From contig CP126121.1 of the NCBI GenBank assembly GCA_030123625.1, positions 1,342,179 through 1,406,178 on the forward strand: a DNA stretch of 64,000 bases, in the 5' to 3' direction. This DNA is from Nitrospira sp. GTDB taxonomy: Bacteria; Nitrospirota; Nitrospiria; Nitrospirales; Nitrospiraceae. The position numbers and the translations under genes were made by a program. The notes beneath the pieces are model-generated. The model searched no databases and had not been told where the DNA came from. It was given only the letters and a program-made list of their open reading frames with translations. Below, piece by piece: positions 6,829 to 46,544 of the stretch; positions within the stretch are counted from its first letter, which is position 1, and every line of letters begins with the position of its first letter.

Positions 6829-6857
6829 TTGACAGGGGCATCTTTCAATTGTAACCA
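6829..6857 (+). promoter_or_regulatory. Putative promoter of the imuB-dnaE2 cassette
   Basis: TTGACA lies at 6829-6834. Seventeen nt downstream is TAACCA (6852-6857), a weak -10 that falls inside the palindrome at 6851-6865. A perfect -35 with a weak -10 covered by an inverted repeat would suit a repressed promoter. This is an inference. Confidence 0.4.
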
Positions 6858-6865
6858 TTGGTTAC
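6851..6865. promoter_or_regulatory. Perfect spaced palindrome, candidate repressor operator
   Basis: The sequence is GTAACC-ATT-GGTTAC, a perfect 6-bp inverted repeat with a 3-bp centre, 12 nt upstream of the imuB-like ATG. It covers the putative -10 region. ImuB-DnaE2 cassettes are usually under SOS control, so a LexA-type or other repressor site is plausible, but the motif is not one of the LexA boxes I know. Confidence 0.45.
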
Positions 6866-6877
6866 TTTTAAAGTGAA

Positions 6878-8053
6878 ATGGATCGCCATATTGTCTGTCT
6901 GCAGATCCCCGCTTTTAGAATCGTGTTGGCCCGTGCCGCTGATAGCGCGCTGCGGAACCGACCGGTGGCGGTAGCACCATTGCATACGCCGCGCGCATTG
7001 ATCAGAGAAATTTCCACGGAAGCGTTTCACGAGGGCCTACAGCCGGGGATGCCGGTGGATCTCGCGCGGCTGATCTGCCCTAATCTGCGGATAATTTCTC
7101 CGGATTCATCACTCATGCAAGCCGCCCATCGCGAGCTGCAACACCGTATCTCATCTTTTGCATCGACTTGGGAATCAATCAGGCCCGGCTCGCTCTTCGT
7201 GGACCTCACCGGCACAACCCGCCTCTTCGGCCCTCCCATCGATACGGCGACCCGCATCAGCCGGGAATTGACCAACCAGCAGGGATGGCCGAGTACGATC
7301 GGATTGGCGAGAAACAAGCTGGTCTCGCAACTGGCGGCGACCACTCTCACGGAACCACTCCAAGTGCTGTCGATCCATTCCGGCTGTGAGCAACCGTTCC
7401 TCGCTCCATTGCCGACCATGTTGCTTCCCGGCCTTCACCGAGCCCACATCTCTCGGGTCTTACAACGGTTAGAGGATTTAAACCTCCTTACACTCGGCGC
7501 AATCGCTTCTGTGCCGTTGGCTTATCTACAGATCGCCATCGGCCCTCCGGCCGGTTTAGTGCACGACTGGGCCTTGGGGATCGACCCTTCCCCGGTACAC
7601 CCACCAACCGCACAGCCGATGATGGAAGGATCCATTTCCATCGATCCGGATGAAGTCGACGATCGGCTTTTGCTGGGACGGCTATACCAATTATTAGAGC
7701 AGCTTTGCACCACACTGCGGCAACAGCAACGGATGTGCCGGTCTGTCTCGCTGACTGTTCGTCATAGCGATCATGTCGAGCAGACCGCTTATGAGACGCT
7801 GCCTCACGGCACCTACTGGGAGGACGATCTTCAGCCTGTGCTGACCGACCTGTTTTACCGATGTTTCCGTCGACGGGTGCGCCTCACCAGGCTGGTGCTT
7901 CAGGTCAGTCGGCTGGAGCCACCCGCCCGGCAACTTTCGCTTTTCGACGGATCTGTCGTGCTTCCCCGCTCTCACCGCCTCTCGCTGGCTCTGGATCAAG
8001 TTCGCGCAAAATTCGGCGCACAAGCTCTGTCTTGGGGAAGGACATTACGATGA
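6878..8053 (+). CDS. imuB: ImuB-like, catalytically inactive Y-family polymerase homologue
   Basis: The 391-residue protein has the Y-family fold pattern: an N-terminal HIVCLQIPAFRIVLAR strand, the WESIRPGSLFVDLTGTTRLFG segment at about 98-117, and a thumb/little-finger C-terminus. The acidic residues that bind metal in active DinB are absent. The first Asp site is replaced in LQIPAF, and the Asp-Glu of the second motif is Arg-Pro at about 102-103. ImuB proteins are known to be such inactive adaptors that bring DnaE2 to the clamp. A beta-clamp motif QLSLF stands at 352-356. The stop overlaps the dnaE2 ATG (ATGA), so the two are coupled. No imuA or lexA gene is adjacent in this window. Confidence 0.85.
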   Translation: MDRHIVCLQIPAFRIVLARAADSALRNRPVAVAPLHTPRALIREISTEAFHEGLQPGMPVDLARLICPNLRIISPDSSLMQAAHRELQHRISSFASTWESIRPGSLFVDLTGTTRLFGPPIDTATRISRELTNQQGWPSTIGLARNKLVSQLAATTLTEPLQVLSIHSGCEQPFLAPLPTMLLPGLHRAHISRVLQRLEDLNLLTLGAIASVPLAYLQIAIGPPAGLVHDWALGIDPSPVHPPTAQPMMEGSISIDPDEVDDRLLLGRLYQLLEQLCTTLRQQQRMCRSVSLTVRHSDHVEQTAYETLPHGTYWEDDLQPVLTDLFYRCFRRRVRLTRLVLQVSRLEPPARQLSLFDGSVVLPRSHRLSLALDQVRAKFGAQALSWGRTLR

Positions 8054-11000
8054 CGGCTGTCCAATTCGTCCATCTCCATGTCCATTCGGATTATTCGCCG
8101 ATGCGCGGCGTGTCGTCGCTGGAAGAGCTCTGCGCCTTGGCGCGGGGGCAAGGATCGCCGGCCATGGCCTTGACCGATACGAACGGATTGTATGGAGCGA
8201 TCCGATTTGTCGAACATGCGAAGCAACTGGGGCTCCGGCCGATTCTCGGCGCTGAGCTGACCGGTGCCGATCATCGGGCGGTTTTACTGGCCAAAACACC
8301 GGACGGGTATGCCAACCTCTGCCGTGTGCTGTCGGAAAGGCATTGCAATCCCTCGTTCGATGTCCTCGCGTCAGTCTCACGCTATCGTGACGGTCTCATC
8401 GTCCTCACGGACGACGAAGCGGCGCTCATGGCCTGGGCCAAAGACGCGCGGCAAGACCTCTACGTCGAATTGACACCGGGGCCGGCTCTGCATGATGCGC
8501 TCCTCTTGAGCCGCCGAATCAATCTCCCACCTGTCGCTACCAATCGTGTGTACTTTTCTCAGGCGAATGACTTTGCGACGCATCGTCTGCTGCGTACCAT
8601 CGCCCTCAACACGACGCTCTCGCGCCTGCCGAAAGAAGCTTGTTGCTCGCCTAGCCAATGGCTGGTGCCGCCGGCGCGTATGGCATCTCAGTTTCCTCAC
8701 GTTCCGGAGGCACTCGAAAATACCATCCGCATTGCCGAAGCTTGTCACAGCGACTGGCGTTTCGGCGAGGCAATCTTTCCGGCCTTTCGCCGGCTGACCG
8801 ATGAAGAAGCGTTTTTGACACTAAAAGACAAAACCTATGCCGGCGCACTGAATCGGTATGGGGCCATCTCACAAGAAGTCCGTGACCGGATTGAAAAAGA
8901 GCTGGCGATCATCCGAGAAAAACGCTTCGCTCACTATTTCCTTGTCGTGGAGGAGATTGTTACGGCATTAAAACGAACCACCTGTGGACGCGGTTCAGTC
9001 GCAGCTTCAATCGTTTCGTACTGTCTCAACATCACCCATGTCGATCCGATCAAGCATCACCTCTTCTTCGAACGATTTCTCAATCCCGGTCGGAAAGACC
9101 CACCGGACATCGATATCGATTTTGCATGGGACGAGCGCGACGACATTTTGCGATGGGTATTCGAACAATACGGCGAGCGCCAGGCCGCCATGGTGGCGAA
9201 TCACAACAGCCTCGACTTCCGGGCGGCCATTCGTGAAGTCGCCAAGGTATACGGCATGCCGGCTGAAGAAATCAGCAGGATGTCTTCGCTCGTTGTGCGT
9301 CAAAAAGATCTTCTTGGATTTTCAACTCCACCAACCAACGAGCAATGGCTCTCTCGGCTGTCACACATCCTACGATTGAAAGCTCCCTGGCCTGAGATTC
9401 TTGCCCAGGCGCTGAAAGCACAAAACCATTTCCGCCATCTCTCCATGCACTGCGGTGGAGTCGTCATCGTACCGGATGAAATCCGGCGCTACGTGCCGGT
9501 GCAATATACGGCTAAGGGCTTACCGGTCATCCAGTGGGAAAAGGACCAGACAGAGGACGCGGGGCTCGTGAAGATCGATATCTTGGGCAACCGGTCGCTC
9601 GCCGTGATTCGAAATGCTTTGGCGGCCATCGCCAAACATACGGGCTGGACGATCGACTACGAGACCTGGGATCCGCTCAACGACACCGCCACACAAAACA
9701 CGATCCGATGCGGCGACACGATCGGCTGCTTCTACATCGAATCGCCCGCCACGCGCCTCTTGCTGAGAAAACTGTGGATCGGCATGCCGCCGCACCGCCG
9801 CGCGGAGGCCAATGTCTTCGACTATCTCGTCATGGTTTCGTCCCTGGTCAGACCTGCGACCAATCCCTTCGTCGAAGACTTCATCCGAATGGCCCAAAAA
9901 GACTCATGCGTACACTGGCATGACAAGTTAGAGGACATTTTGAAGGAAACACACGGCATCATGACCTACCAGGAAGACGTCTCGAAGGTTGCGATGGAAC
10001 TGGCGGACTTTTCCATCGATGATGCCGACCAGCTCCGAAAAGTGCTGAGCAAGAAGCACAAGGCCAAGCAGCTGCAGGATTACCGTATCCAATTTTTTAA
10101 CGGCGCCAAAAAGAACGGTGCGTCACGGGAAATAATCGACCAACTCTGGCAGATGATTATGAGTTTCGCTGGCTACAGTTTTTGCAAGCCTCATTCGGCC
10201 AGCTATGCGCAGGTGTCGTTCAAGTCCGCCTATCTCCGCACTCACTATCCGGCGGAATTCATCGCCGCGGTCATCAGCAACGAAGGGGGATTTTACTCGA
10301 CGTTCGCGTACATCTCCGAAGCGCGGCGCATGGGACTGGCCATCCTTCTGCCGGATATCAACGAGAGCGATTGGGCCTACCGCGGCGAAGGGGAGCGGCT
10401 TCGGATGGGTTTGATGCAGGTGAAGACAATCCCGGAAGCACTCGGCGTGAGGATCGTCGAAGAACGCACGCAGCATGGTCCGTATCGGTCATTTCAGGAC
10501 TTTCTTCGGCGTGTAAAACCGGAGTCGTCCCATGCCAGGGCATTGGTCCGTGCCGGCTGCTGCGACTCCATCGCCGGCGAGCTGACAAGGCCGGCCTTGA
10601 TGTGGCGGCTATATGTGGGGAGCGATGTCGCCTCAAGTCCCTTACCGATTCCGAACGACTATTCAGCCGCTCAGAAGCGAGCCCATGAGATCGAGTCGTT
10701 TGGCTTTCTGGCCAGCCGTCATCCTCTGACTCTCTACCGCAAGCAGATCGAACGGCTCCGACCGGTGCCGGCCTCCCAGATGCATTGCTACGTCGGTCGG
10801 CGCATCATCATGGTCGGTGTGCTGATCACGGAAAAGACAGCTGAGACCAAACATGGCCAAGCCATGGAATTCATCACTCTGGAAGACATGACAGCCCTTT
10901 ACGACGCCACGCTGTTTCCCGAGGTCTATCGTCGCTGCTGCCATCTGCTCTCACCCAATCGCCCGTACGTGGTCCGGGGGTCGGTAGAAGAAACATTCGG

Positions 11001-11151
11001 TGTCGTTACCCTGACTGCGTTAGATCTGCAAGTGCTGGAACCAACGATGGACGAGGGAAATCACTCGCTGCCCAACTGGCAAGAATCGCGGTATGGTAAA
11101 CTATGCGTCGCCCCGTCCGATCCGCCGCTCAATTCCTTCCCCCCCGCTTGA
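8050..11151 (+). CDS. dnaE2: Error-prone DNA polymerase III alpha subunit, DnaE2 type
   Basis: The roughly 1033-residue protein begins with a PHP domain (HLHVHSDYSPMRG, residues 8-20; TDTNGLYG). It continues with the C-family polymerase core, including GRGSVAASIVSYCLNITHVDP and the catalytic PPDIDIDF around 351-357. The helix-hairpin-helix and OB parts follow. The start is the ATG overlapping the upstream stop; a longer open frame upstream only shadows the imuB-like gene. DnaE2 works with ImuB in damage-induced mutagenesis and translesion synthesis, as known for Mycobacterium and Caulobacter. The position directly after an ImuB-like gene supports DnaE2 rather than the replicative DnaE1. The next gene overlaps its 3' end by 49 nt. 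Confidence 0.9.
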   Translation: MTAVQFVHLHVHSDYSPMRGVSSLEELCALARGQGSPAMALTDTNGLYGAIRFVEHAKQLGLRPILGAELTGADHRAVLLAKTPDGYANLCRVLSERHCNPSFDVLASVSRYRDGLIVLTDDEAALMAWAKDARQDLYVELTPGPALHDALLLSRRINLPPVATNRVYFSQANDFATHRLLRTIALNTTLSRLPKEACCSPSQWLVPPARMASQFPHVPEALENTIRIAEACHSDWRFGEAIFPAFRRLTDEEAFLTLKDKTYAGALNRYGAISQEVRDRIEKELAIIREKRFAHYFLVVEEIVTALKRTTCGRGSVAASIVSYCLNITHVDPIKHHLFFERFLNPGRKDPPDIDIDFAWDERDDILRWVFEQYGERQAAMVANHNSLDFRAAIREVAKVYGMPAEEISRMSSLVVRQKDLLGFSTPPTNEQWLSRLSHILRLKAPWPEILAQALKAQNHFRHLSMHCGGVVIVPDEIRRYVPVQYTAKGLPVIQWEKDQTEDAGLVKIDILGNRSLAVIRNALAAIAKHTGWTIDYETWDPLNDTATQNTIRCGDTIGCFYIESPATRLLLRKLWIGMPPHRRAEANVFDYLVMVSSLVRPATNPFVEDFIRMAQKDSCVHWHDKLEDILKETHGIMTYQEDVSKVAMELADFSIDDADQLRKVLSKKHKAKQLQDYRIQFFNGAKKNGASREIIDQLWQMIMSFAGYSFCKPHSASYAQVSFKSAYLRTHYPAEFIAAVISNEGGFYSTFAYISEARRMGLAILLPDINESDWAYRGEGERLRMGLMQVKTIPEALGVRIVEERTQHGPYRSFQDFLRRVKPESSHARALVRAGCCDSIAGELTRPALMWRLYVGSDVASSPLPIPNDYSAAQKRAHEIESFGFLASRHPLTLYRKQIERLRPVPASQMHCYVGRRIIMVGVLITEKTAETKHGQAMEFITLEDMTALYDATLFPEVYRRCCHLLSPNRPYVVRGSVEETFGVVTLTALDLQVLEPTMDEGNHSLPNWQESRYGKLCVAPSDPPLNSFPPA

Positions 11152-11744
11152 CAATCCCTGCGTTGCAGGAGACTGCCGCCTCTTGTACCGGATGCGATCT
11201 GTACCAACGAGCCACTCAAACAGTGTTTGGAGAAGGCTCAACCCATGCGACGATCATGTTCGTCGGCGAGCAGCCTGGCGACCAGGAGGACCGGGCCGGA
11301 CATCCTTTTGTCGGACCAGCCGGTAAAATCTTGGACAAGGCGTTGGCTGAAGCGGGAATTGAGCGGCAGAGCGTGTATGTCACGAATGCCGTGAAGCATT
11401 TCAAATGGGAACCACAAGGCAAGCGCCGTAAGCACAAGAAACCGTCGGCCTCCGAAATCGCCGCCTGTCGTCCATGGCTTGAAGCGGAAGTGCAAGCGGT
11501 CAAGCCACAAGTGATCGCATGTCTCGGCGTGACGGCAGCCCAGTCGGCTTTTAAAAAGACTATCCGTCTGAATGACCTGCGAGGGCGGCCTTGGAGCACA
11601 CCTATCGCTCCGAACGTCTTTGTGACTGTTCACCCATCGGCAATTCTTCGACATCCGGAAGCAGCACAGCGCGAAGAGGAATATCATCGCTTCGTCGAGG
11701 ATCTGAAACGAATCAAGCAATTTCTCCAGGCACAGGCGGCTTAA
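11103..11744 (+). CDS. udgX: UdgX-type uracil-DNA glycosylase
   Basis: The 213-residue protein is a family 4-like uracil-DNA glycosylase with GEQPGDQEDRAGHPFVGPAGK (residues 55-75) and the C-terminal VHPSAILR motif. Fe-S ligand candidates are Cys28 and Cys31 (CTGC), Cys122 and Cys140. A KRRKH loop at 107-111 matches the KRRIH loop that defines UdgX, in which the His attacks the abasic sugar and leaves the enzyme covalently bound to the DNA. Here the fourth loop residue is Lys instead of Ile and the His (111) is kept. The gene overlaps dnaE2 by 49 nt and its stop is coupled to the next start, so it belongs to the mutagenesis cassette. Confidence 0.88.
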   Translation: MRRPVRSAAQFLPPRLTIPALQETAASCTGCDLYQRATQTVFGEGSTHATIMFVGEQPGDQEDRAGHPFVGPAGKILDKALAEAGIERQSVYVTNAVKHFKWEPQGKRRKHKKPSASEIAACRPWLEAEVQAVKPQVIACLGVTAAQSAFKKTIRLNDLRGRPWSTPIAPNVFVTVHPSAILRHPEAAQREEEYHRFVEDLKRIKQFLQAQAA

Positions 11745-45035: not shown

Positions 45036-46544
45036 CTAGAGGCGGGTCCCAAGTCGTTGGATGGCATCGCGCGCCACCTCGCGATCGTCGAAATGGACCT
45101 TCTGCGTGCCGAGAATCTGATAATCTTCGTGCCCTTTACCGGCGATCAATACCATGTCGGCACTATGGGCCTCCCTCACCGCTTCCTCGATGGCTTCCCG
45201 TCGATCAGGCACTTTTCGGTACTGGACGTGTGGCCGTTGCCGCAGCGCCTCGATCACTCCGACTTCGACTTGTTCTAGAATTGAGAGGGGATCCTCGGTT
45301 CTGGGGTTGTCCGAAGTCAATATCACGACGTCGCTGTAGCGTACGGCCGCTTCTCCCATCTTCGGCCTCTTTCCCCGGTCGCGGTCTCCACCGCACCCAA
45401 AGACTGTGATGATGCGTCCCGTTTTCAGGGCTTGTGCCGCCGCCAGCAATCGGACGAGCGCGTCTTCGGTATGGGCGTAATCCACGGCCACCGTGAACGG
45501 CTGGCCTGCGATCACACGTTCAAACCGTCCCGGCACGTTAATGATCCTTGTCACAGCATCACAAATTTGTGCAGGTGTGGCTCCTTCGTGAAGCGCGACT
45601 CCGATAGCAGCTAATAAATTATAGATGTTGTGCTCACCGACGAGGTGACTCTCAATGGTGAAGTTTCCGAACGGAGTCGCAGCGGTAAAGGTTGTTCCTT
45701 CAAGAGACAACCGTACCGCTTCAGCACGCAGATCTGCCTTGGCTCTTAATGCATAGGTCCAAACCGGGGCGTGGCAGGCCTCGACAATACGATTCCCATA
45801 GCGATCATCGATATTGATGATCGCTCGTTTATTCGCCTTAAGACCTCTCTTCAATCCTGTAAAAAGCCTCAGTTTTGCTTGGAAGTACTCCTCCATGGTT
45901 TTGTGGAAATCGAGATGGTCCTGAGTCAAATTCGAAAAGACCGCCACATCATATTCGCATCCGCTCGTGCGATCCTGCGCCAGAGCGTGAGAGGACACTT
46001 CCATCACTGCAGTGGTGCACCCGCCGGCGACCATCGTGGCCAGCAACTGTTGTAGTTCAAGAGAGCCGGGTGTCGTGTGTGTTGCCGGCATCGTGCGTTC
46101 ACCGATCTGATAGGCGACTGTTCCAATCAATCCTACCGGGTGATGCAGGGCTTCCAGAAGCGCTTTGCAGACATAGGTCGTGGTGGTTTTTCCGTTTGTC
46201 CCGGTCACGCCGATCATCCGAATATGCGACGAGGGGTCTCCGTAAAAGCGGCTTCCCAATAATCCAAGTGCCTTTCTGGAGTCGTCAACGCGGACCAATG
46301 GAAGCAACACCCCATTCACCGGCTGTTGCGACACCAATGCGGCCATGCCTCTCTTCACTGCCGCCGGAATAAATTTGTGCCCATCGACCCTCTCCCCTTT
46401 TACCGCTACAAAGAGACTGCCGGTCGAAACGGCTCGGGAATCATCAGTGATCGATTTTATGGACACGTCCAAATTTCCATGACGATCAAGAATCCTCACC
46501 TGTCCTTCCAGTGCCTGAAGCAGGGTTGCCATGGTCCTCGACAT
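45036..46544 (-). CDS. murE: UDP-MurNAc-L-alanyl-D-glutamate ligase (third residue, probably meso-DAP)
   Basis: The Mur ligase has DSRAVSTGSLFVAVKG, the ATP loop VTGTNGKTTTTYV, TTPGSLELQQLL, the EVSSHAL motif and a DNPRTEDP segment. DNPR is the meso-diaminopimelate-specifying motif in Gram-negative MurE; Lys-adding enzymes differ here. Three start codons are close together (TTG 46550, ATG 46544, ATG 46532). I use 46544. Confidence 0.95.
   Translation of the reverse strand: MSRTMATLLQALEGQVRILDRHGNLDVSIKSITDDSRAVSTGSLFVAVKGERVDGHKFIPAAVKRGMAALVSQQPVNGVLLPLVRVDDSRKALGLLGSRFYGDPSSHIRMIGVTGTNGKTTTTYVCKALLEALHHPVGLIGTVAYQIGERTMPATHTTPGSLELQQLLATMVAGGCTTAVMEVSSHALAQDRTSGCEYDVAVFSNLTQDHLDFHKTMEEYFQAKLRLFTGLKRGLKANKRAIINIDDRYGNRIVEACHAPVWTYALRAKADLRAEAVRLSLEGTTFTAATPFGNFTIESHLVGEHNIYNLLAAIGVALHEGATPAQICDAVTRIINVPGRFERVIAGQPFTVAVDYAHTEDALVRLLAAAQALKTGRIITVFGCGGDRDRGKRPKMGEAAVRYSDVVILTSDNPRTEDPLSILEQVEVGVIEALRQRPHVQYRKVPDRREAIEEAVREAHSADMVLIAGKGHEDYQILGTQKVHFDDREVARDAIQRLGTRL

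Follow-up and report, generated by a model that had tools for sequence, protein, structure and literature searches.

The imuB-dnaE2 operon and its promoter

The window, a stretch of 64,000 nucleotides (G000:C1:1342179-1406178) from a 4.69 Mb single-contig Nitrospira genome, contains three overlapping forward-strand genes of a mutagenesis operon. The first, imuB (6878 to 8053), encodes a Y-family polymerase-like protein in which profile search placed PF00817 and PF11799 (IMS and IMS_C) over cut-off. Its product contains the sequence RQLSLF, which resembles a clamp-binding motif, and has presumably lost the catalytic acids, judging by eye against known motifs. The second gene (8050 to 11151) overlaps the imuB stop codon and encodes a DnaE2/ImuC-like error-prone polymerase III alpha subunit of 1033 aa. 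The equivalog models for DnaE2 and DnaE stayed below cut-off for this protein (NF004225, matched in one stretch over residues 2-1001, 589 bits against 939; NF004226, 678 bits against 1002), and it is the gene context that favors its assignment as DnaE2. Overlapping its end is a gene of the uracil-DNA glycosylase (UDG) superfamily (11103 to 11744), UdgX-like according to TIGR03914 (277.9 bits, cut-off 189.95). The glycosylase carries the sequence KRRKH, which is near KRRIH, the motif of the UdgX proteins that bind uracil-DNA covalently, and a UDG that closes a mutasome operon is possibly an SOS-linked UdgX. No imuA adjoins imuB-dnaE2 in the window, and the genome has a single match to the RecA family (PF00154). 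Upstream of the imuB promoter, rpsF and ssb are encoded on the opposite strand.

The promoter consists of a consensus forward-strand -35 element, TTGACA (6829 to 6834), followed after 16 nt by the palindrome GTAACCATTGGTTAC (6851 to 6865) and after a further 12 nt by the imuB ATG at 6878. An earlier note on this DNA had described a perfect palindrome of two 6-base arms around 3 central bases between the -35 and the start codon. Both the palindrome and its placement proved real, the repeat being slightly longer than described, with perfect 7 bp arms (GTAACCA/TGGTTAC) around a single central T. The note had also placed the palindrome over the -10 region. It does occupy the expected -10 position, and the exact -10 is uncertain because the hexamer at 17-nt spacing from the -35, TAACCA, is a poor match to TATAAT.

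As a palindrome, GTAACCATTGGTTAC is not significant per se. The window has 13 perfect palindromes of the same 7-1-7 size, and the palindrome pattern with up to two mismatches was observed once against 0.83 expected. Such palindromes are thus common in the window, and the case for this one rests on where its sequence recurs.

Recurrence of the palindrome across genomes

The distribution of the motif was analyzed in 59 genomes, comprising the host and its relatives. The pattern GTAACCATNGGTTAC, which specifies 14 bases and imposes no promoter condition, occurred 28 times, and its reversed control once. When these 28 places were assigned by coordinates to regulon promoters that had been identified separately, all of them fell in the promoters of three families: 13 in front of genes for a LexA-like repressor, 7 in front of imuB, and 8 in front of a gene for a small protein. 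With the -35 included, TTGACN{14,20}TAACCNNNGGTTA was found at 30 places in 25 of the 59 genomes, and its reversed control at none. All 30 belonged to the same three families, one of them (L095, where the imuB frame is broken or short) being assigned by eye.

The same three families dominated a scan of 84,980 species, each represented by one genome. The pattern TTGACN{16,17}GTAACCNNNGGTTAC matched 104 places, of which 88 were in regulon promoters (59 repressor, 15 small protein and 14 imuB) and 16 were elsewhere. The 88 carried the record labels Nitrospira or Nitrospirota (83), Nitrosospira (3), Proteobacteria (1) and Nitrospinota (1), and in every one of them the central triplet was ATT, ATC, AAT or ATG. 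The remaining 16 were scattered over other phyla (14) or were Nitrospira loci ending at the edge of the fetched stretch (L158 and L178), and these two edge-cut loci were the only ones among the 16 with any of those triplets. In two unrelated MAGs (L193, near 2518, and L215, near 613), TTGAC preceded a double site of the form GTAACC-N3-GGTTAC TAACC-N3-GGTTAC, with a TetR-like gene downstream in L193.

Spacing was conserved together with sequence. In all 12 imuB promoters examined, that of the window included, 10 to 12 of the 12 specified operator bases and the TTGAC were kept, and the distance between the two was constant at 16-17 nt. This fixed distance, with the operator at the -10 position, fits repression by blocking of RNA polymerase.

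The possibility of a phage origin for the operator was pursued with a relaxed scan of viral sequences, which gave at least 120 places. Only 1 of the 120 listed loci matched the query proteins, with 26% identity to one of the repressors (type A, below), and the flanks of the operator in the matches listed appeared random, leaving a phage origin without support.

A small regulon in the host genome

Searched with the relaxed pattern TTGACN{15,18}GTNNCCNNNGGNNAC, the host genome gave four places, and the reversed control none. Three of the four were regulon promoters, namely the imuB promoter of the window and those of the small-protein gene (operator at 2605613-2605627) and of a repressor gene designated type B (operator at 4547317-4547331); the fourth, at 46283, was a poor match. 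Matches with one mismatch were rejected as a definition of the regulon, since only one of the six in this genome, in front of the small-protein gene (L004), has a promoter with a -35. The regulon is therefore very small, comprising about three promoters.

The earlier note had suggested a search upstream of lexA and recA. The motif does precede a LexA-like repressor gene, and none was found near the start of recA, where the only match of at least 9 of the 12 bases was a 9/12 match about 900 nt before the start. The reading offered in the note would fall if the motif stood before no other DNA-repair gene and were not bound by LexA; the motif in fact precedes imuB-dnaE2 in relatives as well as the LexA-like gene. 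Its view that the palindrome is either an SOS box or a site for some other damage regulator is supported, with the qualification that the regulator has a DNA-binding domain of the XRE type and not that of canonical LexA. The suggestion of an SOS box for the whole phylum has to be narrowed, as the evidence reaches the level of the order Nitrospirales.

Besides the lack of a site at recA, two features of the distribution count against the circuit proposed below. Many genomes have the repressor with no window-type imuB. In addition, one genome (G026) has the sites of both imuB and the small protein, and the repressor gene was not found in its 380-contig assembly.

LexA-like repressors of the XRE-S24 type

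Three proteins with an S24 domain are encoded in the host genome. Two of them, of about 180 aa, combine an XRE/HTH_3 domain (PF01381) with S24 (PF00717), and for the third (L018) neither an HTH_3 match nor a nearby site was found. The type B repressor (about 181 aa; C1:4547335-4547877) has valine at residue 29 and arginine at residue 39, and its own operator is GTTACCAATGGATAC. The type A repressor (C1:3786587-3787120) has Q29 and V39, and its own operator is GTAACATTTTGTTAC. The two proteins are about 56% identical, and their operators share GTAAC-N5-GTTAC. Type A heads a second operon (L016, about 3785105-3787157), in which the repressor, imuB2 and a dnaE2-type gene lie behind GTAACATTTTGTTAC. 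Palindromic operators of XRE-S24 repressors are thus found both at the repressors' own promoter and at promoters of error-prone polymerases, and because type A, with its different operator, heads a second imuB-dnaE2, each of the two mutagenesis operons seems to have a circuit of its own.

Canonical LexA was ruled out as the binder of the window site, since its winged HTH (PF01726) has no match in the host genome at E ≤ 0.001; in the order as a whole, 17 of 146 genomes had PF01726 over cut-off. The S24 halves of the XRE-S24 repressors align to the LexA proteins of E. coli and Thermotoga with the Ala-Gly, Ser and Lys in place, and Ala66-Gly67, Ser100 and Lys137 were invariant in all 33 aligned sequences. 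Through the S24 half alone, both repressors exceed the cut-off of the NCBI lexA model (TIGR00498), so automatic annotation would probably label them LexA. An AlphaFold2 model (pLDDT 86), with helices at residues 3-12, 17-24, 28-35 and 43-53, matched LexA, UmuD and lambda-type repressors, the S24 half being closest to LexA and UmuD.

The type B operator is imperfect, with only 4 of 6 arm pairs, which counts against the type B protein as repressor of the window site. As the imuB operator is perfect, self-repression may be weaker than repression of the target. Many repressor operators end 0-3 nt before the start codon, so that the repressor transcripts would be nearly leaderless. In five repressor promoters (L016, L035, L036, L084 and L108) no nucleotide separates the operator from the start codon.

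Matching of repressor residues to operator bases

Palindromic sites in front of repressor genes are the rule. Upstream DNA was available for 144 distinct repressors. In 135 of them it contains a palindrome that pairs in 4 or more of the 6 arm positions, and a -35 matching in 4 or more of 5 bases lies 16-17 nt from it. The same holds for 75 of the 83 repressors found by protein search alone, and in 51 of these 83 every arm position pairs (6/6). Leaving out unclear sites and short proteins from the 144 gave 136 usable pairs of repressor and operator. These fell into seven classes: GTAACC (86), GTAACA (15), GTGACA (10), GTATCC (9), GTAACG (8), GTGACC (6) and GTATCG (2), asymmetric sites being assigned by base 6. 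In other words, seven of the nine combinations of AA, GA or AT at bases 3-4 with A, C or G at base 6 occur.

Residue 39 accounts for base 6 in all 272 half-sites: R39 occurs with C6 (202/202), H39 or L39 with G6 (20/20), and V, M, F, S, C, I or W at this position with A6 (50/50). At bases 3-4, R29 occurs with G3 (32/32) and L29 with T4 (22/22), the rule for these bases deviating in 39 of the 272 half-sites. None of 2000 shuffles reached the residue-operator association, for a rule that was derived from the same data it describes. In the model, residue 29 falls within helix 3 (residues 28-35), and the loop that follows this helix contains residue 39. One column of the S24 half, K95, also correlates with base 3, presumably through descent.

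A set of 24 fresh repressors, from which at least 12 further loci were excluded as duplicates of known proteins, provided a weak test of the rule because most of them are close relatives. Base 6 was predicted correctly in 23, the miss having no recognizable site, and at bases 3-4 one or both half-sites agreed with the rule for 16 of the 24. The misses at bases 3-4 were seven asymmetric GTTACC-type sites and one repressor with no site. In a tree of the S24 halves, many forks of which were unresolved, base 6 changed seven times and the class of residue 39 also seven times; independent pairs on well-supported branches numbered 2, 3 and 1, all concordant and too few for significance. Thirteen genomes have two or three paired repressors, and 18 of 19 within-genome pairs differ in class (the exception being in G012), a descriptive count from hand-chosen loci. 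One locus (L266, G011:C28) has two tandem GTAACG operators in front of a K29/H39 repressor with the unusual helix motif TTRKTVNCYE.

This covariation of the residues of a LexA-like protein with the palindrome upholds the idea that the palindrome is the site of a damage regulator. The window site, with A3, A4 and C6, belongs to class GTAACC, which fits V29/R39 and not Q29/V39, and it therefore matches type B and not type A.

A small protein under the same operator

The third family of the regulon is a protein of about 114-133 aa with a C-terminal QLRLF that resembles the clamp-binding consensus, QLxLF. All 14 aligned members end in (N/D/K)QLR(L/M)F. Among the 59 genomes the protein is confined to the genus, where it was found in 17 genomes, and 22 of 24 loci have at least 11 of the 12 operator bases behind TTGAC. 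The host genome has two copies, both ending in QLRLFEDF: one with the operator present (C1:2605628-2605903, L232) and one that has lost it, with 9 of 12 bases (C1:115674-115931, L235). No match to the protein was found in NCBIfam, PHROGs or, at cut-off, Pfam, and a low-confidence structural model (pLDDT 66) gave weak SH3/Tudor/BAH-like matches (E > 0.02). Co-regulation with ImuB, which itself has RQLSLF, suggests a clamp-linked role for the small protein. For comparison, a mycobacterial ImuB uses QLPLWG, according to the available text of PMC10421592.

A proposed damage-response circuit

The sites, the genes, their conservation and the matching of residues to operators are features of the sequences themselves. 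They are best explained if the palindrome serves as operator, or SOS box, for a LexA of non-canonical type whose regulon is very small, a prediction to which we give a probability of roughly 0.88. From these features we infer binding, repression, cleavage, induction and the insulation of the two circuits from each other, and from homology the part played by RecA. In the undamaged cell, a dimer of the XRE/HTH_3-S24 protein of about 181 aa would sit on GTAACCATTGGTTAC, cover the -10 and block transcription of imuB-dnaE2-UDG. Upon DNA damage, RecA filaments would stimulate the repressor to cleave itself at the Ala-Gly bond, and the cleaved repressor would leave the operator, allowing the error-prone mutasome to be made. 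The cognate repressor of the window site would be the product of the distant gene at C1:4547335, and this one repressor would govern the imuB operon of the window, its own gene, and the small protein with the clamp-binding-like end.

The circuit could differ from this in its signal. An XRE-S24 repressor might bind as proposed and respond to another stress or to a partner protein, a behavior known from some repressors of the phage type. XRE-S24 proteins are diverse, HdiR is also described as responsive to heat shock in the available text of PMC8565304, and recA lies outside the regulon. We nevertheless consider a signal other than DNA damage unlikely, given that the targets are a translesion polymerase module, that neither the cleavage site nor the catalytic dyad varies, and that LexA and UmuD are the closest matches of the S24 half. 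Somewhat less likely still is that the type A paralogue at C1:3786587 binds the window site and a single repressor serves both mutasomes. The similarity of the two repressors and the shared frame of their operators would allow this; the site of the paralogue itself has A6, to go with valine at residue 39, and the division between V39-type with A6 and R39 with C6 ran through all 272 half-sites. Moreover, the window type of imuB goes with GTAACC-type sites in 12 of 12 promoters, one or two deviating bases being allowed.

That the repeat is a hairpin of an RNA leader or a chance palindrome is very improbable. Palindromes of this size are plentiful in the window and the start codon is close, but the site and its spacing are conserved and its arms covary with residues of a protein. 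The repeat also overlaps the -10 and lies mostly before the expected start of the transcript.

Returning to the LexA-like repressor as the regulator of the site, a wider proposal can be made tentatively, and we hold it to be slightly less probable than not. In the Nitrospirales, a family of LexA-like repressors may have taken the place of canonical LexA and may acquire new, mutually insulated operator specificities through changes at about two positions: bases 3-4 would be set by residue 29, in helix 3, and base 6 by residue 39, in the loop after it. A single cell could then maintain two or three copies of ImuB-DnaE2, each under its own switch, and in the small protein it would have a new sliding-clamp ligand that is SOS-induced and acts as a partner of the mutasome.

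The proposed circuit gives a lineage of environmentally central nitrite and ammonia oxidizers a testable SOS-like system, with an operator, a likely repressor and a list of targets, in a genome in which the DNA-binding domain of canonical LexA went undetected. The 160 repressors whose own operators were read form a large natural data set in which residues and bases match almost one to one, and because of this match, point mutants offer a way to test how a LexA-type repressor changes its box. A new candidate component of the error-prone replication machinery is added with the small protein.

Comparison with known systems

Literature searches, with most subscription journals outside their coverage, found neither the operator box in any of three spellings nor a report on an SOS circuit of Nitrospira. 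The lineage, the operator, the small regulon member and the residue code appear to be new.

The closest precedent is provided by the HTH_3-S24 SOS regulators of the Bacteroidetes, for which binding and induction by mitomycin are demonstrated in the available text of PMC8565304. As described there, they share with the Nitrospira repressors the PF01381 HTH joined to S24, palindromes whose arms are separated by an N5 spacer, regulation of their own genes, targets among the error-prone polymerases, and paralogues with diverged palindromes. The Bacteroidetes operators given in that text are CTAA-N5-TTAG or GGA-N5-TCC, and many of the regulons are large, whereas the Nitrospirales have GTNNCN-N3 palindromes, about three promoters, ImuB-DnaE2 as targets, and a residue-to-base match.

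HdiR and UmuDAb are further minimal networks. HdiR of the Streptococcaceae, compared here by its description in the available text of PMC8565304 and PMC9578287, is likewise a LexA-like S24 repressor acting where LexA is absent, with a network made up of itself and a translesion polymerase; it differs in belonging to another lineage and in targeting umuC instead of imuB-dnaE2. Like the LexA-regulated imuA-imuB-dnaE2 cassette, as far as it is described in the available text of PMC3919608 and PMC10421592, the window has imuB adjoining a DnaE2-type gene, with an operator of the damage type in front of them. Unlike that cassette, its operon has no adjacent imuA, an unlinked repressor, a terminal UdgX-like gene and a separate co-regulated small protein. 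With canonical LexA itself, the Nitrospira repressors have in common the S24 domain, the Ala-Gly cleavage site and the Ser-Lys dyad, and they differ from it in having an XRE/HTH_3 domain in place of PF01726, no site at recA, and a different operator.
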